This document shows, in pieces, positions 8,997 to 55,063 of a stretch of 64,000 bases of DNA. This stretch comes from Dysgonomonas mossii DSM 22836 (lineage in GTDB: Bacteria > Bacteroidota > Bacteroidia > Bacteroidales > Dysgonomonadaceae): contig NZ_GL892008.1 of NCBI RefSeq assembly GCF_000213575.1, positions 191,584 through 255,583 of the forward strand, written 5' to 3'. A program made the position numbers and the translations under genes. How positions within the stretch are numbered: position 1 is the first letter of the stretch; each line of letters begins with the position of its first letter. The notes under the pieces were generated by a model. The model searched no databases and was not told the origin of the DNA. It was given only the letters and a program-made list of their open reading frames with translations.

Positions 8997-10418
8997 CTAT
9001 CTCCAGTCTTTCGAATACTTAATACCATCAAATACCAACTCGTCGTTATAGAATGCTCTTGCCATTCTTTGCATTGCAGTTAGCTGTGATGATTTGAAGT
9101 TGGAACGGTTAGGATCCATCGCAAAGATCATATGTGACAAATATCCGTTGTCGCGCATTTTTTTCAGGTTATTCTCACTTGCTATACGCCCTTGAGCAAA
9201 TTCTTGAGAATACAGCCCCATATTCGCTTTTGGCATTCCAGGAAAGTAAGAGGATAAATCAGAAGACCCACCATAATCATGTAATGCATAATCAACAAAT
9301 TCCCCTGAATTCATACCATCAATAGAAGGCAAACCGTATGTTGTACTGTAGCAATAGGCAACTACCCATCGTTCCGGTTGTATCTTTTTCACCTCGTAGC
9401 ACAATCTTGCTGCCGGCTCCTTGCCGGGATATACAAAGCCGGGAGTTATGTTACTATATTCGTATTTTGAATATTCATCATCTACAAAAATCCCATCCAA
9501 TTGGTAAGCATCACACATTGCTTTTACTTCTTTGGCAAACTCCTGTGCTGTTTCTTTACTCATATTAGCCACTCCTGATCGGTCGTGATTTCCCAAAAGC
9601 CCCAATATAATCTTTATACCTCTATCTTGTAATGGTTTCAGATATTTCTCCCGATTATCAAGAATGGCTTTTACATTTTCGTTATTGAAAATATATACCC
9701 GTCCGGTTTCTTCGTTATAGTTGATGTTAGCAGAAAAAAGAATTAAAGCATCTACTAAGGGTTTACCGCTACCGGCCAAAGTAAAGCTAAGATTATTCAA
9801 AGGATTGGTGTCGTTGATTTCCATACAGCTGAATACTTTAACACCTGGAGCTCCATCAACGTATTTTGTACAGTCAGGAAGCCCTGTCAGATCTTTTATG
9901 AATATCATCCGGGTTTGATCGGCTTCAGCCAGTTTAAAGTCTCCTGAAGTTACTTTCATACGCAATGGAATAACATAGCTTTTCTTGGGAGAAAGATCCC
10001 CTTCAGATGTGTATGATACTTTCATATCAGCCGATTGCTCGGAACCTTTATTCAATTTGATTATTCCTCCATCTGCGAATGTCACTTTTGCCTGCGGAAA
10101 TGCGTCGTAGGCAGTACCGTAAGTATTATTATATTCGGCAAGTACGGTTTCATCATAACTTACTGTCACTGTTCCTTCTGAAGCAAGTTTTGCTGTCGTC
10201 TTTAGTTGTAGGTACATATCACCTGCATCGCGGAATTCTACATTCGAGAACATTCGCTTCCCCTTGCTGTCACTAATGTAGCCCATTACAGAACCATCTC
10301 CCGTAGAATATTTGTTTTCGTCCAAAGTTCCTACATTAATATCCTCGGAGCAGGCTGTAAGCATAATACCTGCTATTATAAAGGCTGCAATCCTATATTT
10401 AGATTTTAAATATTTCAT
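8997..10418 (-). CDS. GH18 endo-beta-N-acetylglucosaminidase lipoprotein (DUF1735 + GH18)
   Basis: The 473-residue lipoprotein (lipobox ITACS-like, IMLTACSEDINV) has an N-terminal DUF1735/BT_3987-like beta domain up to about 185, then a GH18 TIM barrel. The barrel carries KIILGLLGNHD and the active-site strand DGIFVDDEY at about 306-314. In GH18 the last E of DGxxxDxE is the acid and the D two residues before it assists substrate-assisted catalysis; both are present. The first internal D is replaced by F, as in many endo-F/H-like enzymes. Related surface enzymes such as BT_3987 cut the core chitobiose of high-mannose N-glycans and free the glycan from protein. Its neighbours fit that role. 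It would act outside the cell before SusCD import. Confidence 0.92.
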   Translation of the reverse strand: MKYLKSKYRIAAFIIAGIMLTACSEDINVGTLDENKYSTGDGSVMGYISDSKGKRMFSNVEFRDAGDMYLQLKTTAKLASEGTVTVSYDETVLAEYNNTYGTAYDAFPQAKVTFADGGIIKLNKGSEQSADMKVSYTSEGDLSPKKSYVIPLRMKVTSGDFKLAEADQTRMIFIKDLTGLPDCTKYVDGAPGVKVFSCMEINDTNPLNNLSFTLAGSGKPLVDALILFSANINYNEETGRVYIFNNENVKAILDNREKYLKPLQDRGIKIILGLLGNHDRSGVANMSKETAQEFAKEVKAMCDAYQLDGIFVDDEYSKYEYSNITPGFVYPGKEPAARLCYEVKKIQPERWVVAYCYSTTYGLPSIDGMNSGEFVDYALHDYGGSSDLSSYFPGMPKANMGLYSQEFAQGRIASENNLKKMRDNGYLSHMIFAMDPNRSNFKSSQLTAMQRMARAFYNDELVFDGIKYSKDWR

Positions 10419-10447: not shown

Positions 10448-11599
10448 TTATTTGGGTAACGAGACAGGTATCCATGTAATTGTTTTGTTTGCAACTATAG
10501 TATTACCATTACCTGTGTGGTCGGCTATTACCTGTCCACTTCCTTCGTTAAACTTCCAGTATGCTGCCAATCCCGGACTTTTAGGTGCTACTACATAAAA
10601 ATGATCTTTCCCTTGGATCTCTTCTGCTGTGAGCACACGGTTCCAAACACGACATTCGGATATAGTGCCTTCGATATAACGATTGTCATCGTATGATTTG
10701 CCTACATAGAAGCTGGAAGTAGCCCAGTTGACACTGTTACGATAATTTGTTGTTTTAGTATCTCCTTTTTTAACGCCATTGATGTAAACATTCACAGCAC
10801 CGTCGGCAGAGTTGTAAGTTGCAGCAAGATGCACCCATGCGTTAGTCGGTATCTGCCAGGCTGCATCTGTGAGATTTCCATTGGAAGTAGCTAGCTGAAG
10901 TTGATTGTCAGGAACACCGGCATCACCAATACGAAATAGGAAGTTACCTTCGATACCCATTACTGTACTAATAAGCTTGCCGAATTTATTTACATACAAC
11001 AATGCTTCTATGGATACCTCTTTCATATCATTCAACGTAGAAGTTCCCGGATTCTGTAGCGAAAGATAGTTTTCCGTAATATCAGCTACTGTATTAATCA
11101 GGGCAGCACCTTTAATTACAAAGTAAGTATTACGAGCACTTCTTAGAAATTCAATATTTGAATTAGCCACGGTTATAGGCAATACGTAAACTAGATCGCG
11201 ATCTAAGCCGGAAAGATTTTTGAAATTTATTTCCACATCATTACCTTTCACTGTGCCGGCTGCAATTGTAGATACAGCATCCGTAAGTTCATAATATTCA
11301 TTGGGAAGAATAATAGCATTGCCTTCATATGTCATATTATATTGGCTTACTAAAGATGCATCGACTTTATAGGTCACGATAATATCAGACGCTTCGGGTT
11401 TGGCAACAGATGTCTGAATAGTTCTACTTTCTGTTTCATTAGTTCCCATCAATAGTATAGAGCCGACTTTCTCTGAAGTAGTGAAAGCTTTATTGTCATA
11501 ATTTTCCGCATCGTCTCCGCAGGATGTCAATGTTCCAACAGCCAAGAACGTTACAAAAAATGAAAGTATTAAATTATTGAATTTGTTTTTCATAATCAT
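10448..11599 (-). CDS. DUF1735 + LamG-like surface lipoprotein (probable glycan-binding protein)
   Basis: This 383-residue lipoprotein (lipobox VGTLTSCGDD) has an N-terminal DUF1735-type domain (about 40-170) and a C-terminal concanavalin-like LamG/laminin-G_3 domain (about 175-380). The latter contains VSIEALLYVNKFGKLISTVM, WVHLAATYNSADGAVNVYIN and GTISECRVWNRVLTAEEI. LamG_3 folds bind carbohydrate, and no hydrolase motif is seen. The position directly before the GH18 gene corresponds, as I recall, to BT_3986 in the B. thetaiotaomicron high-mannose N-glycan locus, a presumed surface glycan-binding protein. The start chosen, MIMKNKFN, could equally be the second Met. Confidence 0.88.
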   Translation of the reverse strand: MIMKNKFNNLILSFFVTFLAVGTLTSCGDDAENYDNKAFTTSEKVGSILLMGTNETESRTIQTSVAKPEASDIIVTYKVDASLVSQYNMTYEGNAIILPNEYYELTDAVSTIAAGTVKGNDVEINFKNLSGLDRDLVYVLPITVANSNIEFLRSARNTYFVIKGAALINTVADITENYLSLQNPGTSTLNDMKEVSIEALLYVNKFGKLISTVMGIEGNFLFRIGDAGVPDNQLQLATSNGNLTDAAWQIPTNAWVHLAATYNSADGAVNVYINGVKKGDTKTTNYRNSVNWATSSFYVGKSYDDNRYIEGTISECRVWNRVLTAEEIQGKDHFYVVAPKSPGLAAYWKFNEGSGQVIADHTGNGNTIVANKTITWIPVSLPK

Positions 11600-11607
11600 T
11601 TCTTCTT

Positions 11608-12645
11608 TTATTTGACGGATGGATTAACACTCGAAATAATTTTTCTTAGATAGTAATAATCCTTTACAGTAGTATGATAATCGGTAGAAGCATTGTAAAC
11701 TCCCACGGCATTTACTTTTATTTCGCCATGTACAACGGGAGCCCAATCGGCAAGACCTTCCATCGTCACTGTACCGTTGGCGAAATATCCAATACTCTTG
11801 TTGGGATCATTCAGGTTAATAGCCATTACCACCATTCCGAAACGATCTTTCGGAATATTATCTATGTTGGCAAGGAGTAAAGTATAAGTTAATTCATCCT
11901 TCGCTTTTGCTGTTTTTCCTGAAATAAGAATAGATAAACAATCATCAAGCAACGAGGTATCTATGAGATTTTGAGGCTTTCCCTCGTATGTTATTATTTT
12001 CTCCGGATTGCGTTTCTTCCAATCTCTCATAATATTAATGAAAGCTGTTTCATTTTCGATATATTGATTCAACTCATTGGGACGCATATGGAGTCGTGAT
12101 TTCCCGGCATAACCGATACAAATACCGTCGTAGTTGTACTTTTGTACTAGACTAAGTGAATACTCCAAAGAGTCGGTCAAAAAGTCCAGAAAATCCAATG
12201 CAACAGGTTCATCTTCGGTGGCCATCTCAAGTTTGGCATTAAATGCGGCTTTGATTGCCTCAAAGTCTATTGTGTAAATAACCTTCGTTGCCTTCTCGCT
12301 ACGCACTTTGCTTATATCTTCCAACTCCCAATCAGCAAGCTTGTCCGGATGTATCAGTCCTATTATGTCTACGCTGTCGGGAAGATCGGTGATGTGATGC
12401 GCTCTAGAGAAAGGATTTTTTTCGCTATTGTCAACCCATGCATATACCAAAACGTGATTTGATTTTTTATATTCGTGCAAGTTTTCCAGATATTTAGCAT
12501 AAAGCTCCGGATTATCTTTTGATATATCCGCCTTGTCGAGATCAATGGTTTCTACCTCTTTCCAATCATCGCAAGACACCATCAGTATGACTGCCAGCAA
12601 GCAAAAGAGCGTTAGAGAAATATTATTTTTATTATATTTTTTCAT
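11608..12645 (-). CDS. Catalytically degenerate GH18-like surface lipoprotein
   Basis: This 345-residue lipoprotein (lipobox LMVSCDDW) has a GH18-like TIM barrel of the putative chitinase_18 group. The strand equivalent to the active site reads YNYDGICIGYAG at about 168-179. The first D and G of DGxDxDxE are kept, but the positions of the assisting D and the catalytic E are G and A. It should therefore bind rather than cut. The gene follows susD, with LamG and active GH18 genes after it, matching the inactive GH18-like protein (BT_3985, from memory) in the B. thetaiotaomicron locus. A role as surface glycan-binding protein presenting N-glycan to GH18 and SusCD is inferred. Confidence 0.87.
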   Translation of the reverse strand: MKKYNKNNISLTLFCLLAVILMVSCDDWKEVETIDLDKADISKDNPELYAKYLENLHEYKKSNHVLVYAWVDNSEKNPFSRAHHITDLPDSVDIIGLIHPDKLADWELEDISKVRSEKATKVIYTIDFEAIKAAFNAKLEMATEDEPVALDFLDFLTDSLEYSLSLVQKYNYDGICIGYAGKSRLHMRPNELNQYIENETAFINIMRDWKKRNPEKIITYEGKPQNLIDTSLLDDCLSILISGKTAKAKDELTYTLLLANIDNIPKDRFGMVVMAINLNDPNKSIGYFANGTVTMEGLADWAPVVHGEIKVNAVGVYNASTDYHTTVKDYYYLRKIISSVNPSVK

Positions 12646-12667: not shown

Positions 12668-14296
12668 TTATTTACCAGGTTTGCAATCCCACCAAACACG
12701 TGTAGCCATTGAATCTCCTTTTTTGTTGCTCGATTCCTTGATCAGTAAATTCACTGCTACTGCTACGTTTTCCCCGTTCTCACGATATTCATTGGTCGGA
12801 TAAGTCAGACGAGCTATCCCCTCAGTATCATTGACGACTCCTCCGCTCAGGTTGGCTGCCATCGGCATTAACTTAGGATATCCGGTACGGCGGTATTCGG
12901 ACCAAGCTTCCATACAATTAGGAAATATAGCGATCCACTTTTGAGTAATTATTTGCTCTAATTTTGTCTCAAAATCGAAAGACTCATTCCATGCAACAGT
13001 CACATCAGATACAATAGATCCCGAATAATCATAGATTTGCCCGGATTTTCTGGCTAGCGGATCCTTATAGGCTGTTACTTTTCCGGTAGCATTGGCAATA
13101 TAAGCATCAACTCCTGTTGCATTTCGTTCAGCAAATGACATGCGGATACCTTCCTCGTAAAGGGCTTGAGCAGTACCTCCCATGTTCCATCCGCGAAGAG
13201 CACCTTCTGCCCGTAAGAATGTAGCTTCAGAAGCCGGAAAAACGAGAATATCATCTTCAGTGGTTACATTCATGCAAGAATAACCATGAGACCAAGAGTT
13301 AAATTCTCCCTGCCTGATTCCACGGCGTAAGCCAACATAATCTTCCGCATCAGTATAACCTCCGTTAGAAGTGGCCGCAAAGGTTGATTTGTTATAATAT
13401 ATCGGACGGCGAGGGTCGTTAAACCCATTCATATAACAGACCAAATCGGCTGAAATACGAGCATCAGACCAGTTAGGCATGAAGCGTTCCCATGGGTTAT
13501 GATCTGCTACTTTACGGAAAGCTCCGTCAGTAGATGCTGTCATTACACCCATTTGAGAATTTACAGCTTCTTCCGCTTTTGTTTTTGCCAACGTTTCATC
13601 GGCATATACTATACGCATAGCCATACGAAGTTTAAGTGAATTCGCAAACTTTGCCCACGAGGCAATATTACCGCTAAAGATGCGATCTGCTCCCGCATTG
13701 AATTTTTGGGTGGATAGTTTAGTGAGAACTTCGATGATATTATCCAGATCTTCAAACATTCTCATATATACGTCTTTTTGCGAATCGTAAGGAGACTTAA
13801 TCGCATTATCAACACCCACTTTTGTGTAAGGTATCGGTCCGTAAGTGTCAGTTACACGAAGCATGACAGCAATACGATACAGTTCAGCCAGTGAAAGAAA
13901 AAGTTCATCTTTGCTCTGGTTTACCAATTGGAAGTAATCCGGATAAAACTTTTCATAGAAGTCGCCAAAAGGAACTCTTGACCAGTTTTCGGATGGATTA
14001 TAAGTAGCAAAACGCCCCGACCAACCGGTTCCTAGGTTAGAGTCAGCTATATATCCAGAAAACCCACCCGGCATTAAACAATCTACATACTGAGAGAAAT
14101 TTTCGTTTTCGGGCATCATCACATCCTGCATATTTAACACAAGGGCTCTGACTAAATACCCATCTGCCATCATATCATCAGCATCCGGTTCGTAAGGATT
14201 TTTATTGTAATCTTCGAAGTTCGATGTACAAGCGGCCACTCCAAAAAGAATTGCGCCGATCGCGATAAACTTTGCTATAGTTTTATGTAATTCCAT
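12668..14296 (-). CDS. SusD-like outer-membrane lipoprotein
   Basis: The 542-residue lipoprotein (signal with LFGVAACTSN) resembles the SusD-like families that are mainly helical with TPR-like repeats. Typical features are FEDYNKNPYEPD near the mature N-terminus, ELYRIAVMLRVTDTYGPIPY, ANSLKLRMAMRIVYAD and the C-terminal QKWIAIFPNCMEAWSEYRRT. SusD proteins form the extracellular lid of SusC and bind glycan. Its start lies 12 bases after the susC stop, so the two are surely co-transcribed. The predicted substrate is high-mannose N-glycan, from the company of GH18 and GH92. Confidence 0.93.
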   Translation of the reverse strand: MELHKTIAKFIAIGAILFGVAACTSNFEDYNKNPYEPDADDMMADGYLVRALVLNMQDVMMPENENFSQYVDCLMPGGFSGYIADSNLGTGWSGRFATYNPSENWSRVPFGDFYEKFYPDYFQLVNQSKDELFLSLAELYRIAVMLRVTDTYGPIPYTKVGVDNAIKSPYDSQKDVYMRMFEDLDNIIEVLTKLSTQKFNAGADRIFSGNIASWAKFANSLKLRMAMRIVYADETLAKTKAEEAVNSQMGVMTASTDGAFRKVADHNPWERFMPNWSDARISADLVCYMNGFNDPRRPIYYNKSTFAATSNGGYTDAEDYVGLRRGIRQGEFNSWSHGYSCMNVTTEDDILVFPASEATFLRAEGALRGWNMGGTAQALYEEGIRMSFAERNATGVDAYIANATGKVTAYKDPLARKSGQIYDYSGSIVSDVTVAWNESFDFETKLEQIITQKWIAIFPNCMEAWSEYRRTGYPKLMPMAANLSGGVVNDTEGIARLTYPTNEYRENGENVAVAVNLLIKESSNKKGDSMATRVWWDCKPGK

Positions 14297-14308: not shown

Positions 14309-17300
14309 TTAGAATTTAAGTTTTACATTGAAGCCTATGCTGCGCAAGCTTGGCATCATAAAATAGTCAACACCTTGATAGTAATTACCTGTAGTGGCAA
14401 CAGCCTCAGGGTCGAAAGGAGCCTTGCAGTAAAACATAAAGAGGTTACGTCCTACCAGTGAAAGAGTGACGTCTGCAATATTATTAATCTTTGATCGAGG
14501 GATCGTATAGCTAAAAGAAGCTTCCTGTAAACGTATATTTGTTGCACTATAAGTATAGAACAAAGGGATACCACTGTCGGCTCCAATTGCTGTATACCAT
14601 TGCTGTGCATCGAGCATATCGTTGCCGTTGATAACGACGCCCCCGTTGTCGCGGGCATTTCCTGTTGCTTCAGATACGCCATAAGAGTCGAGAACAGCCT
14701 GTGTTGCTGAATAAACGACGCCGCCAAAGCGTGCTGAAACAAGGAAGCTTAATTCGTAATTCCCAAACAGGAAGTCATTCCTCCATGCCATGTTTGATTT
14801 TGGAAATACTGACCCCAGATAGATACCCTCAGTCAAATCGTTGACCTTTACAGCTCCACTTGCATCTACATAAATATTATTGTTTGAATCGCGCAGCAAG
14901 TCGGCCATAGAATATAAGTCTCCTAACGAGCCTCCTTTCTTTAAAATGAATCGGGCTTTTGATAAACCGCCTACATTCATCTCTTCTTTTGTGATTTTTT
15001 CTCCGGTCAACGGATGTATGTATCCATCTATCAGATTATTAATCTTGTTTTTGTTGGCACTAAAAGTATAGTTAGAACTCCACGTAAATTTATTCCATGT
15101 GTTTTTGTAGCCAAGAGATAGTTCTATACCATGATTGCTCACATCGCCTGTTTGCGCATAAAATGTGCTATAACCACCTGTAGGAGATAAATTAGCATTC
15201 ATCGTCTGGTTATAGGTTTTTGTATTATAGTATGAAACATCCAGGTTGAAATTCTTAAAGAAGTACGTGGTAAGACCTATTTCCCATGAGTTAGTCCGTT
15301 CCGGTTTCAGGTTATACAACGGGTAAGCTGACTGCGAAGTAAAGCCTCCTTTAGAGTCATCCCACGAGAAAGTAGGACTAGCTAGAAAACGACTAAACGG
15401 AAGACCTACAGATGCCCACGAACTGCGTAATTTCAGAAAGGATATATCTTGAGGCAAGGTTAAAAGTTCAGAAAAAATAACTGAGCCTCCTATAGACGGA
15501 TAAAAAAACGATTTCGTTGCAGAACGAGGACCGGCAAGTTGCGAAGGCCAATCGTTACGCCCTGTGAGCGTCAGGTAATAGGAATTTTTATAGCCCACTT
15601 CGGCTGAAGCAAAAACGGATTGGGTTTGTTCACGGTAGCCATTTTCCCTCCTTTTAGTTGTCGCTTTATCCAATTGGGCGATAGTGAAATAATTAGCAAG
15701 CCCATCTGCGGGTATAGGTCCCGAAACAGAGAGAGCATCAGACCGATTATCTGAGTAAGAAGCTCCAATGTTGGACGTTAATGACCAGTCTTCGCCAAAG
15801 TATTTATTAATATTCATCAGAATATCTGCATATGTTTGCTTGTCTCCCGTATTGGCTACTCCGTAGTAACCGTTTTGTGAGCCTTCGGCAATAACAGGTT
15901 CGGTACTGGCATAGTATTTCTGTTTATAAGTATTCGTAGAGTTATCTACTCGAACTCTTCCTGAAACATTCAGCCAGCTTAGAATATCGTAAGACAATGC
16001 GGTGCTGAGCATGTAGCGGTCTTTATCGTTTTCGCGTAAATTGCGGTAATTGATCCAATATGGGTTTTGTAAACGAAACGACCCTCCGCCTTGTGGCCAG
16101 TACTGAGTGTATAAGTTACGTGTAGGATCGAAACGTTCGAACATCTTATATTCTTCCCAGTCATTTCCTCGCGGGAACAAATAAGCAGACGCGATCGGAT
16201 TGGCATATACTCCCTGATTCACCATATTATGGTCTTTTTGTATAACATACTGCAGACCTACATCAAGTTTCATTTTATCATCTAAGAAAGATGTTGTATT
16301 ACGGAAGGTGAAATTGTAACGGTTGTATTTATTATTAGGTACTATCCCCCGTGAATTTAAAGCAGCAACAGACAGGTAAGTTTGATTTTTCTGAGATCCG
16401 GTCGACAGCGTAACTGTTTCGGTTCCGATAAGGCCTGTTTGGAAATAATCATCTTTTGGGTTGTATCCGTAATAATTGCCGGCATTAAGACGCGAACCCC
16501 AACTAGCCTCTGTCCCAGATGTTCCGTACCTATCCTGGAACTTATGCATGACAAAAGGATTCAGCATCTCAGTGTTACTTGAAACAGTAACTGTAGTACG
16601 TCCTACATGTCCTTTTTTTGTTGTAATAAGAATAGCTCCATTTGAAGCGTTGCTACCGTAAAGAGCGGCTGCGGCGGCACCTGACAGAACAGACATCGAT
16701 TCAATGTCTTCGGGATTGATATCGGCGATAGCTTCACTAGATCCTTGCGATTGAAATTCTTCGCTTCCTCCTGTCGCACTGAGATTGTACATCGGAATAC
16801 CATCTATTACATAAAGAGCGTTACTCGATTGCTCAATTCCTCTAGAACCTCGCATCACGACTTTACTGGCTCCACCAATCCCCGAAGAGGATGCATTGAT
16901 ATTCAAACCTGCAACTTTACCAGTCAGAGAGTTGATAAAATTGGAACTTTTCACACTGAGAGCAGACTCGGCATCTATCTGTGTTACGTTGTAACTCAAT
17001 GCCTTTTCGGAACGTTTGATGCCCAAGGCTGTGACGACTACAGCATCCAAAACATTATCCTTTTCCTTGAGTGTAATGCTAAACTGTGTTTTATTCCCGA
17101 CCGGTATTATACTAGATTCATAACCTACACAAGAAACTTGCAGAGATGTATTCTTAGAGATTGAAGCCTTTAAGGAGAAAGCTCCATCTATGTCTGTCAA
17201 AGTTCCATTTGTGGTACCTTCTATTGCGACAGAGGCTCCGATAACGATTTCTCCATTCTGGTCATATACAATCCCCGACAGTGTTTCAACTTTACTGACA

Positions 17301-17632
17301 GAGTCAACTTGCTTAAAAAGAAGAATATTAGAATTACTTATTTTATAAGTAATGTCCGTTCCTTTTACCATTTGTGCCAACACGTCACTGAGAGGTTTGT
17401 TTTGTGCGTTAACACTTACATTTTGCTTAATATTTACTTCTTTATCTGATATAAAGAGGTACTTGGTTTGTTTTTCGATTTCATTCATTACACTTTCCAT
17501 CGAGACATTTTGCATATTTATAGTCACACGGATACTTTGTGCAAGAATAGGTTGATTATTGATCAGAAAAAAACAAATGGCTAACATCGTGGTAAAGAAC
17601 CATTTTTTTTGCTGAATACTTTTTTTATCCAT
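14309..17632 (-). CDS. SusC-type TonB-dependent transducer with STN domain
   Basis: This 1107-residue outer-membrane receptor has a signal peptide ending near PILAQS, then an STN (secretin/TonB short N-terminal) signalling domain at about 40-105 with NMQNVSMESVMNEIEKQTKY. A carboxypeptidase-D-like domain follows (LSGIVYDQNGEIVIGASVAI, GTLTDIDG), then the plug (about 205-335; DGIPMYNL, AAAALYGSNASNGAILITTK) and the barrel. STN domains contact FecR proteins in the periplasm, and the FecR and ECF sigma genes directly upstream are the expected partners. Binding of the glycan should release the sigma factor and amplify the PUL. The barrel pairs with the SusD encoded next. The leader is overlapped by a probable antisense RNA. 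Confidence 0.95.
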   Translation of the reverse strand: MDKKSIQQKKWFFTTMLAICFFLINNQPILAQSIRVTINMQNVSMESVMNEIEKQTKYLFISDKEVNIKQNVSVNAQNKPLSDVLAQMVKGTDITYKISNSNILLFKQVDSVSKVETLSGIVYDQNGEIVIGASVAIEGTTNGTLTDIDGAFSLKASISKNTSLQVSCVGYESSIIPVGNKTQFSITLKEKDNVLDAVVVTALGIKRSEKALSYNVTQIDAESALSVKSSNFINSLTGKVAGLNINASSSGIGGASKVVMRGSRGIEQSSNALYVIDGIPMYNLSATGGSEEFQSQGSSEAIADINPEDIESMSVLSGAAAAALYGSNASNGAILITTKKGHVGRTTVTVSSNTEMLNPFVMHKFQDRYGTSGTEASWGSRLNAGNYYGYNPKDDYFQTGLIGTETVTLSTGSQKNQTYLSVAALNSRGIVPNNKYNRYNFTFRNTTSFLDDKMKLDVGLQYVIQKDHNMVNQGVYANPIASAYLFPRGNDWEEYKMFERFDPTRNLYTQYWPQGGGSFRLQNPYWINYRNLRENDKDRYMLSTALSYDILSWLNVSGRVRVDNSTNTYKQKYYASTEPVIAEGSQNGYYGVANTGDKQTYADILMNINKYFGEDWSLTSNIGASYSDNRSDALSVSGPIPADGLANYFTIAQLDKATTKRRENGYREQTQSVFASAEVGYKNSYYLTLTGRNDWPSQLAGPRSATKSFFYPSIGGSVIFSELLTLPQDISFLKLRSSWASVGLPFSRFLASPTFSWDDSKGGFTSQSAYPLYNLKPERTNSWEIGLTTYFFKNFNLDVSYYNTKTYNQTMNANLSPTGGYSTFYAQTGDVSNHGIELSLGYKNTWNKFTWSSNYTFSANKNKINNLIDGYIHPLTGEKITKEEMNVGGLSKARFILKKGGSLGDLYSMADLLRDSNNNIYVDASGAVKVNDLTEGIYLGSVFPKSNMAWRNDFLFGNYELSFLVSARFGGVVYSATQAVLDSYGVSEATGNARDNGGVVINGNDMLDAQQWYTAIGADSGIPLFYTYSATNIRLQEASFSYTIPRSKINNIADVTLSLVGRNLFMFYCKAPFDPEAVATTGNYYQGVDYFMMPSLRSIGFNVKLKF

Positions 17633-17639
17633 AACTTTG
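17608..17639 (+). promoter_or_regulatory. Antisense-strand promoter at the susC start codon
   Basis: On the plus strand, opposite to susC, TTTG (17608-17611) is followed after exactly 20 bases by TAACTTTG (17632-17639). This is a textbook Bacteroidota promoter. Its -7 element begins on the first base of the susC ATG. It would drive the antisense RNA annotated at 17646. Confidence 0.6.
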
Positions 17640-17645
17640 TGAAAT

Positions 17646-17728
17646 AAGAATCATTAGTAGTTAGAACTTTAAAGTTAATTAACTGCGATTTACGGCCTGT
17701 CAATGTTACAGCATTGGCAGGTTTTATT
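17646..17728 (+). ncRNA. Probable cis-antisense small RNA over the susC leader (DonS-like arrangement)
   Basis: A promoter (17608-17639) predicts a start near 17646. About 50 bases later comes an intrinsic terminator: arms 17696-17705 and 17712-17721, a 6-base loop, then TTTTATT. One pair in the stem is a G-U wobble only when read on the plus strand; on the minus strand it becomes a C-A mismatch, which argues that the terminator serves plus-strand RNA. The product, about 80 nt, would be fully complementary to the susC 5' leader. DonS, a cis-encoded antisense RNA that represses an ECF/anti-sigma N-glycan PUL in Bacteroides fragilis, has the same layout. The equivalence is inferred from position, not sequence. 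Confidence 0.55.
17696..17727 (+). terminator. Intrinsic terminator of the antisense RNA
   Basis: A 10-bp stem (17696-17705 with 17712-17721), 6-base loop and TTTTATT tail are present on the plus strand. The U-G pair at 17700/17717 stays paired only in plus-strand RNA. No plus-strand protein gene ends nearby. Confidence 0.65.
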
Positions 17729-17792
17729 ATGTAAATGGCAGGAGAGTGATTGTTTACTTTTTTTTATTTCATAGGCATATTTAAGGTTTTAT

Positions 17793-18746
17793 TTATAAAA
17801 TTGTTATTACTCCTGTCTCCGGATCTTTTTTATAAGTAAATTCTGATGATAATTGCAATATTTTCAAAGCATGATCGATTCCATCAGAAACACGTATTTT
17901 TCCTCGATTATAACTAATGGTAGGGATATTTTTACTTCGTATTTCTATTTGAACATTAAAAATTTGCTCAAACTTGGCCATAAGCTCTACGAAAGATATA
18001 TCATGGATGCTTATAATTCCTTCAGTCCAAAGATACTCATCGTGATTTTCTATATTTTTCAGATGTAAATGCCCGTCTTTAAGTGTAACTACTTCATTGA
18101 CTTTCATTATGATGGGATTCTCTTGGATCAGTTTATTTGTTAATTTTATTGACCCAGACATTAATGCCACCGAAAAGCTTTTTAATGATTCATCTGCATT
18201 GATATTAAATTTTGTACCAAGCACCTCAATGTTACAAGCGTATGTTTCTACTATAAAGGGGTGTTTTTCATCATGTTTAACATTAAACATTGCTTCACCG
18301 GATAATTTTACAAGCCGTTGATTTCCTGAAAAGACAGAAGGGTATTCCAACTTTGCACTCGAATTAAGCCAAACTTCTGTCCCATCACCCAATGTAATTT
18401 GTACTCGTTGCCCTTCGGGAACATCTATCATTGTTTTTTGGTTAGACAGATTGTCTATTTTATTTGAAATGTAATTATATCCTATTCCTGCTGCAAGAAT
18501 TATTGCTATAGAAGCAGCTACTGATATTTTTGCAAGTCTTGTAAATAGTGAAACCCGAGGTGAAGTTTTGTCTGAAGTCATTTTTTCTAAATCAGGTGCG
18601 CACAAAGCCATACCCTCCATTATCAATTGCATGGAATCTAACTCTTTGCGATGTTCGGGGTCCGATTCGAGCCAATCAACCAAAAGCCTTTCTTCCTCCG
18701 GTGTTGTTTCACATTTTAAAAACTTTATAAGTAATTCTTTTTCCAT
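17793..18746 (-). CDS. FecR-family anti-sigma factor
   Basis: This 317-residue protein has a short cytoplasmic N-terminal anti-sigma region (about 1-70; LLVDWLESDPEHRKELD) and one transmembrane helix at about 75-93 (VAASIAIILAAGIGYNYI). A periplasmic FecR domain follows, with VPEGQRVQITLGDGTEVWLN, KLSGEAMFNVKHDEKHPFIV and VLGTKFNIN. The C-terminal STN-contacting region includes the FEQIFNVQIEIRSKNIP segment. It would hold the ECF sigma encoded upstream and receive the signal from the STN-SusC encoded downstream. The gap to susC contains the susC leader and the antisense RNA. Length and order are typical. Confidence 0.94.
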   Translation of the reverse strand: MEKELLIKFLKCETTPEEERLLVDWLESDPEHRKELDSMQLIMEGMALCAPDLEKMTSDKTSPRVSLFTRLAKISVAASIAIILAAGIGYNYISNKIDNLSNQKTMIDVPEGQRVQITLGDGTEVWLNSSAKLEYPSVFSGNQRLVKLSGEAMFNVKHDEKHPFIVETYACNIEVLGTKFNINADESLKSFSVALMSGSIKLTNKLIQENPIIMKVNEVVTLKDGHLHLKNIENHDEYLWTEGIISIHDISFVELMAKFEQIFNVQIEIRSKNIPTISYNRGKIRVSDGIDHALKILQLSSEFTYKKDPETGVITIL

Positions 18747-18899: not shown

Positions 18900-19493
18900 T
18901 TATAGGAGAAACTTCCAAATAGCCAATGTGATAAGTAATGGAAGGTAATCCTTTAGAGACAACCGAAGTATCTGGGTTGCTTTTCTAATTTCAAAGTTTA
19001 CCTGATTAAAAGATAAGCCAAATTTTTCTCCTATTTCTTTATAAGTCATATTTTCAAAACGATTAGCTAAAAATATTTTGCGTGTTTTTGAAGGCATATT
19101 AGCCAATTCTCGTTTTATAATAGTACTAATTTCCTCCGCATAAAGACCCTTTGGGTCGTTTGTCTCAATAGTTGCTATACGTGATGATATGACACGTAAA
19201 GCTGTAGAATGAATATCTTCTTGTACCTTTAGATGTATACTTTGATCTCGTAACCAATTTAAACACCGATGTTTGATAGAAATCAAGATGTATGAAGGTA
19301 TATTCTGAACTATTTCCGTTTTATTTCTATTTTCCCAAAAAGATATGAAGCTATCCATAACTAAATCTTCTGCAACCATAGCATCTCGGACATAGGAGCG
19401 AGCAACCATCACAAATTGTGGCTTATACTGTTCAAATAACTTTCCAAATTCAGCAGATGTTATTTGTGTAAATACATTCTGAGACATCCTCAA
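18900..19493 (-). CDS. ECF RNA polymerase sigma factor (Bacteroidota PUL type)
   Basis: The 197-residue protein has sigma-70 region 2 at about 15-85 (EQYKPQFVMVARSYVRDAMV and AEDLVMDSFISFWENR) and region 4 at about 125-180 (ANMPSKTRKIFLANRFENMT, then YKEIGEKFGLSFNQVNFEIR). The C-terminus ends in a hydrophobic tail (LPLLITLAIWKFLL), common in PUL-linked Bacteroidota sigma factors and possibly membrane-associating. It heads the sigma/FecR/SusCD locus. The start could be M1 or M3. A housekeeping-type promoter lies about 110 bases upstream. Confidence 0.93.
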   Translation of the reverse strand: MRMSQNVFTQITSAEFGKLFEQYKPQFVMVARSYVRDAMVAEDLVMDSFISFWENRNKTEIVQNIPSYILISIKHRCLNWLRDQSIHLKVQEDIHSTALRVISSRIATIETNDPKGLYAEEISTIIKRELANMPSKTRKIFLANRFENMTYKEIGEKFGLSFNQVNFEIRKATQILRLSLKDYLPLLITLAIWKFLL

Positions 19494-53802: not shown

Positions 53803-53820
53803 TCATAGGGTGACCTATGA
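53803..53820 (+). promoter_or_regulatory. Inverted repeat between sigma and anti-sigma genes
   Basis: TCATAGG-GTGA-CCTATGA is a perfect 7-bp inverted repeat with a 4-base spacer, right after the sigma stop codon. It is followed by TGTCTTATAGATAG (53827-53840), reminiscent of the GTGTCTTTAT element of the first locus. Its role is unknown; a sigma or RNA-level control site is possible. Confidence 0.45.
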
Positions 53821-54842: not shown

Positions 54843-55063
54843 AACCTAAAATCGAACCAGTATGAACAAAATGTGTTATTCCTTTTAATTAAAACTTAAT
54901 ATCGTCGAAGTGATTCCTTAAGAATAAGGATATTCATTTGTATGATGTTTTTTAAAACAAGAAAATTTATGAAAAGACATTACCACTTACTTCTAAGGGG
55001 GCTGGATTTTTTTGCTCCATCTGAACCCGTATTTTTCAACATTAATCTTAAAAAAAATATACC

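Follow-up and report, generated by a model that had tools for sequence, protein, structure and literature searches.

The window, by which we mean the whole 64,000 nt stretch of Dysgonomonas mossii DSM 22836 DNA analysed here, carries a PUL on its minus strand. Pfam searches placed genes for an ECF sigma factor and a FecR-type anti-sigma factor immediately upstream of its susC homologue, and the PUL is presumably under ECF sigma/FecR control. Its GH18 BT1044-like protein has what we take to be an N-glycan role. The nearest named contig is that of Dysgonomonas sp. UBA7710, in which FecR is 87% identical. On the plus strand, a candidate antisense RNA gene was located at the susC start codon. The features are listed below.

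8997-10418, minus strand: BT_3987-like_N surface protein (Pfam)
10448-11599, minus strand: laminin-G/BT_3987-like_N surface protein (Pfam)
11608-12645, minus strand: GH18 BT1044-like protein (Pfam GH18_BT1044-like, E 2.6e-73)
12668-14296, minus strand: susD homologue (Pfam SusD-like)
14309-17632, minus strand: susC homologue, a TonB-dependent receptor with STN domain (Pfam STN, Plug, CarbopepD_reg_2, barrel)
17608-17611, plus strand: −33-like box TTTG of the putative antisense promoter (direct reading)
17632-17639, plus strand: −7-like box TAACTTTG, overlapping the susC start codon from the opposite strand (direct reading)
17646-17728, plus strand: predicted antisense RNA of about 80-85 nt (ends placed from the boxes and the T tract)
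17648-17691, plus strand: first stem-loop (SL1) of the predicted antisense RNA (folding)
17694-17728, plus strand: second stem-loop (SL2) and U tract, a terminator-like hairpin (terminator scan, folding, covariation)
17769-17776, minus strand: GCCTATGA, candidate core of an ECF-type susC promoter (motif recurrence)
17793-18746, minus strand: FecR-type anti-sigma factor (Pfam FecR, FecR_C)
18900-19493, minus strand: ECF sigma factor (Pfam Sigma70_r2, r4_2)

On the plus strand, TTTG and TAACTTTG are separated by a spacer of 20 bases (promoter unit TTTG-N20-TAACTTTG, 17608-17639), and T17632 pairs with the first base of the susC start codon ATG (17632-17630, minus strand). An earlier note on this DNA had placed such a unit exactly at the susC start codon, and the overlap was read directly at these positions. 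The 10-bp stem, 6-base loop and TTTTATT that it had described were likewise found at 17696-17728, where positions 17696-17705 pair with 17712-17721, the loop TTACAG occupies 17706-17711 and the T tract follows at 17722-17728. The terminator scanner lengthened the hairpin to 13 pairs (17694-17723). One SL2 stem pair is U.G on the plus strand and C/A on the susC strand. The start of the antisense RNA was placed about 7 bases past the −7 box, and the predicted RNA stops about 14 bases before the start codon (about base −14). Because it ends short of the start codon, any block of translation would act by proximity only. By sequence the RNA has a promoter and a terminator of its own, and its predicted length of about 80-85 nt is within the 78-128 nt range of the DonS type.

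The putative 86-nt antisense RNA folded at −27.1 kcal/mol (z −5.3), and none of 200 shuffled sequences folded as well. The parts of the element were also compared with chance one by one. The promoter pattern had 310 matches in the 3.95-Mb genome of the strain itself versus 154 for the reversed pattern, and by itself it is weak evidence. Terminator scanning of 4 kb found 3 terminators versus 2.0 expected, so that the terminator by itself is also weak evidence. Single parts are thus near chance, but their combination and its presence in relatives are beyond it. A promoter scan with E. coli-type hexamers was uninformative, and an Rfam search of window positions 17400-18000 returned two chance-level matches (E 3.3 and 4.6), neither of them on the hairpin.

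Covariance model R3 was made from 21 leaders of other susC genes of the family; the leaders of the window locus and of its three close orthologues were left out. Run over the whole 64-kb window, R3 matched positions 17630-17732 on the plus strand (45.1 bits, E 2.3e-5), the runner-up having an E value of 0.39. The earlier note had seen no such element at the other ECF locus of the window (53219 onward), and this absence was borne out. R3 gave no match there at E≤10 with default filters, and neither reading nor R3 revealed an antisense unit in the second susC leader (54843-55063).

For the conservation analysis, the 100 N-terminal residues of SusC were used as the query against 101 genomes of the family, of which 94 had a match. 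Thirty loci, one per genome, were retrieved by protein similarity alone, a choice that favours relatives of the window SusC. Model R2 was trained on rows that include a few of these loci under other ids (L044, L046, L047). It found an antisense unit, placed at the start codon, in 29 of the 30, a result already reached by eye before the models were made; the sole exception with R2 was L026. Alignment A1 comprises 25 of the 30 leaders. L026 was dropped for lack of the element, and L020, L028, L032 and L035 were dropped as the same or nearly the same as another row. In the aligned leaders, 51-64 bases separate the hairpin from the start codon. CATA is present in 25/25 of them, and so is TTTG or TTTA (CATAnnTTTR on the start codon), in leaders selected by susC. 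The contexts found by the model had CATA in 86/86 and G at the last position in 80/86, both of which the model partly selects for.

The earlier note had proposed that related genomes be aligned for promoter and hairpin. Both boxes and the hairpin proved to be present at all four loci, that of the window and those of its three close orthologues, and the orthologues retain TTTG with an identical 20-base spacer. Across the family a conserved −33 box was looked for and not found, although the box is perfect in the window: of 86 distinct contexts, 5 had TTTG at a spacer of 18-20, a frequency matched or exceeded at some unrelated spacers. The genome of the strain itself contains 8 STN-type SusC matches but 2 elements at E≤0.1, the second of which (L045, G000:C5:33011-33111) likewise lies between fecR and susC. 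The distribution of the element is patchy.

Covariation was assessed in sequence alignments that were unfitted to structure. Read as antisense RNA, the 13 SL2 pairs in 25 leaders give 325 cells, comprising 258 Watson-Crick, 61 G.U, 3 A.C and 3 other combinations (98.2% of cells paired). Both sides had changed in 11 of the 13 pairs, and cells changed on both sides numbered 80 of 325, versus 24.4 in shuffles and 9-30 in slid controls. An SL1-equivalent stem of 8 pairs in the 21 other leaders (A5) had 92.0% of its cells paired, with 3/8 pairs changed on both sides. SL1 and SL2 together paired in 95.6% of cells in these 21 leaders, versus 36-46% when slid. The number of further pair types was no higher than in shuffles, the observed value being reached by 247/500 shuffles for A1 and 89/500 for A5; the other measures exceeded the shuffles. 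No SL1 common to all 25 leaders was predicted. The shared SL1 applies to 21 of them; the other four, the Dysgonomonas orthologues with the window included, have an SL1 of different sequence.

A pair that is G.U on the antisense strand is A.C on the sense strand, so an excess of G.U implies that it is the antisense copy that selection has kept. The earlier note had made this argument from the single U-G pair of the window, and it extends to the whole family (G.U 61 vs A.C 3). With the loop-closing pair of SL2 left out the counts were 38 vs 1, and for SL1 in the 21 leaders they were 37 vs 1. Judged from these substitutions, the hairpin is maintained as antisense RNA.

In the order-wide search with model R1, strict filters were used and at most 10 candidates per genome were scored, so that absence from this search means little. 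At E≤0.001 there were matches in at least 36 of 393 genomes and at least 22 families (own count). At E≤0.01, R1 matched 24 of 199 genomes in one family, 10 of 101 in a second family and 10 of 61 in one genus of the second family. R2, whose training rows include some of that second family, matched 114 of 149 genomes in another of its genera. The 99 loci retrieved from the own-genome, order, family and genus searches all match R1, and 93 are distinct; the hairpin-loop and GCCTATGA counts refer to these 93 rows. A susC-like frame starts exactly at the first codon of the model, on the other strand, in 91 of the 99 matches. The model holds no protein information, but its first three positions correspond to the start codon read on the opposite strand. 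No susC-like frame starts there in L058, L061, L062, L069, L088, L116, L121 and L123, of which L069 and L088 are near contig ends. Subtracting these eight and 5 duplicates from the 99 leaves the 86 contexts of the promoter-box count; the eight and the duplicates did stay in A3 and R2. L058, L116, L061, L062, L121 and L123 are possibly free-standing relatives of the antisense RNA, or else their starts are wrong. L058, L116, L061 and L121 come from a genus taken as Bacteroides.

On the sense strand of the window, GCCTATGA lies beyond the antisense 3′ end. Of 93 distinct contexts, 46 contained it within 120 bases with at most one mismatch, versus 3/93 when shuffled and 0-5 of 91-92 in offset controls, the motif having first been chosen by eye from some of the leaders counted. 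It may be the core of an ECF promoter. In B. fragilis it accompanies only 3/10 elements, and L222, a locus treated below, is without it. The antisense 3′ end is about 40 bases short of this likely promoter motif, and the RNA is therefore complementary to about two-thirds of the likely susC leader. If GCCTATGA is the promoter, the sense leader would begin about 35 bases past the antisense 3′ end. An inverted repeat, TCATAGG-GTGA-CCTATGA, occupies window positions 53803-53820 in the interval separating the second ECF sigma gene from its fecR. As its right half resembles GCCTATGA, a promoter ahead of fecR may drive the second ECF locus.

Fourteen loci with a BT1044-type GH18 were inspected besides the window, namely 12 retrieved loci and L222 and L223. 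The antisense unit was found by model in L229, L225 and L226 and by layout, with a weak score, in L222. R2 gave no match at the susC start in L223, L224, L227, L228, L230, L231, L232, L233, L234 and L235, where L233 has no susC in the stretch and the susC start of L232 is too near the contig end for its upstream region to be judged. A link of the antisense RNA to N-glycan PULs as such was rejected, the unit having been found in 4/14 of these other loci. In L222, L223, L224, L225, L226 and L229, susC is immediately preceded by a fecR match. The presence of the unit in four of these six loci, and in none of the remaining ones, indicates that it goes with FecR-type control, although not strictly. 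L224 and L223, BT1044-type PULs with fecR beside susC and no unit found, offer natural experiments on the contribution of the RNA.

DonS of Bacteroides fragilis was reportedly described originally by Cao et al. in 2016. According to the available portions of one report, it belongs to a group of 78-128 nt cis-antisense RNAs that lie opposite susC homologues and lower PUL expression, and B. thetaiotaomicron has ten further such RNAs, five of them confirmed by northern blotting (PMC7366714). A later B. thetaiotaomicron atlas, as far as its accessible text goes, gives 32 PUL antisense RNAs, with two more confirmed, and correlations with their susC that are negative or positive (PMC10994844). The mechanism of DonS is stated to be unknown in the accessible part of PMC11697453. 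We saw no consensus structure for the B. thetaiotaomicron RNAs in the available portions of PMC7366714 and PMC10994844. In the literature searched, outside which most subscription papers lay, no description of such RNAs in Dysgonomonas or of their consensus structure was recognised.

Genome G1046 was taken as B. fragilis NCTC 9343 because it carries a sequence equal to plasmid pBF9343 over 12 kb. R2 found ten elements in it at E≤0.1, all ten between fecR and susC, and R3 recovered all ten of these R2-picked units at E≤0.0094. Two B. fragilis loci, L222 and L223, have the gene order of the window PUL. L222 is probably the don locus, judged from its gene content. A CATAGATTTG box overlies its susC start codon, and its antisense unit, which comprises two stem-loops, scored weakly with R2 (14.9 bits, E 1.4) and was unlisted by R3 at E≤1. 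No antisense unit was found at L223. By R3, the window element is closer to the ten model-found B. fragilis elements than to the unit of L222, and DonS itself may be an outlying member.

The earlier note had proposed a functional analogue of DonS in another genus. An antisense RNA gene over the leader of an ECF/FecR-controlled susC in another genus is well supported by our results. Because a single covariance model covers both Dysgonomonas and B. fragilis, we regard it as a member of the DonS-type family rather than as an analogue. The window element shares with the DonS type its cis-antisense position over the start of a susC homologue, an ECF/FecR-type PUL and, here by sequence, a promoter and a terminator. 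The order sigma, fecR, susC, susD, GH18, LamG is common to the window PUL and the probable don locus L222. The element differs from DonS in belonging to another genus and family. By description, in the portions available, the B. thetaiotaomicron BTnc antisense RNAs share the DonS-like orientation opposite susC (PMC7366714, PMC10994844).

What was observed at the locus and in its relatives concerns anatomy, conservation, covariation, strand asymmetry and genomic context. The unit in 29/30 family loci, the covariation, the G.U bias, the match of a model made without the window, the recovery of all ten R2-picked B. fragilis units by that model and the exact susC starts in 91/99 matches support a DonS-type antisense gene. 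We put at roughly three in four the probability that the element is the gene for an RNA of about 80-85 nt of the DonS cis-antisense type, most likely pairing with the leader of the ECF-driven susC mRNA and reducing its translation or stability. Counted against this are the −33 box, which is not family-wide, the predicted end of the RNA before the start codon, the lack of an SL1 common to the 25 leaders, the patchiness and the positive correlations in B. thetaiotaomicron.

Transcription, pairing and repression are proposed here by analogy with the known RNAs. A housekeeping (sigma-ABfr-like) promoter, with its −7 box on the susC start codon, would fire away from susC, and the antisense RNA would be made while the ECF sigma factor is idle. 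The RNA would fold into two stem-loops, of which the second would serve as terminator, and would pair with early susC leaders, leading to less translation or stability. It would in this way set a threshold for the signal-activated sigma factor to overcome. When an inducing glycan frees the sigma factor, sense output would exceed the antisense pool, and sense polymerases crossing the antisense promoter may silence antisense transcription. CopA and RNA-OUT are two-stem-loop antisense RNAs of plasmids and transposons, constitutive, short, structured and complementary to the leader of the gene that they limit. The predicted RNA resembles them as a short structured RNA complementary to a leader; the genes are different ones and no homology is claimed.

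The antisense unit could also act mainly by transcription, through convergent firing and promoter occlusion, as a mutually exclusive switch in which the RNA matters little. The −7 box on the susC start codon in 25/25 aligned leaders fits such a switch, and so does GCCTATGA (46/93 contexts), which in the window faces the −7 box from about 130 bases away and would make the two promoters convergent. However, interference needs no more than a terminator, and two stem-loops with compensatory changes and a G.U bias were found; we consider this explanation unlikely. Much less probable still is that the hairpin is an element of the sense susC leader, a protein-binding site or attenuator, with the antisense promoter a coincidence. 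The hairpin does lie within the susC leader and its sense copy pairs in part, but the 61 to 3 ratio of G.U to A.C favours the antisense strand, only the antisense strand has a T tract after the hairpin in the window, and the −7 box is conserved together with the hairpin. The sense leader folds with z −1.4 (19 of 200 shuffles as good), compared with −5.3 for the antisense RNA. We give marginally less credence again to an antisense RNA that is transcribed but functionless, the noise of a low-GC genome. Some antisense RNAs may arise from random promoters, according to the available portions of PMC7366714, but the covariation and the exact placement in many genera argue against noise here.

For the DonS-type antisense RNA that we prefer, the folded shape kept in relatives suggests a real and widespread switch on glycan use. 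DonS-type PUL antisense RNAs are already known as a kind, and the order-wide structural family is the newer part. New features are a consensus with two stem-loops, the fusion of the predicted antisense −7 box with the start codon, and an occurrence well beyond Bacteroides. It is conceivable, and we advance it only tentatively, that ECF sigma factor, FecR, an ECF promoter often with GCCTATGA, a two-stem-loop antisense RNA and an STN-type susC form an order-wide co-inherited cassette from Dysgonomonas to Bacteroides, in which the −7 box in the start codon would make a sense/antisense toggle. PUL control is usually accounted for by a sigma factor and an anti-sigma factor. If antisense RNAs are a common third part in Bacteroidales, they need to be included in models of glycan ranking by gut bacteria. 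A consensus with an exact anchor at the susC start codon allows genome scanning and gives precise positions to mutate, making the mechanism of DonS-type repression directly testable.

The loop of the SL2 terminator is unusually conserved, reading UUGCAGC in 22 of 93 distinct rows (A3). The apical SL2 pair is inverted in some rows, with U.G in 64 and C/A in 16 of 93. That many PULs share a loop hints at cross-talk or at a partner in common.
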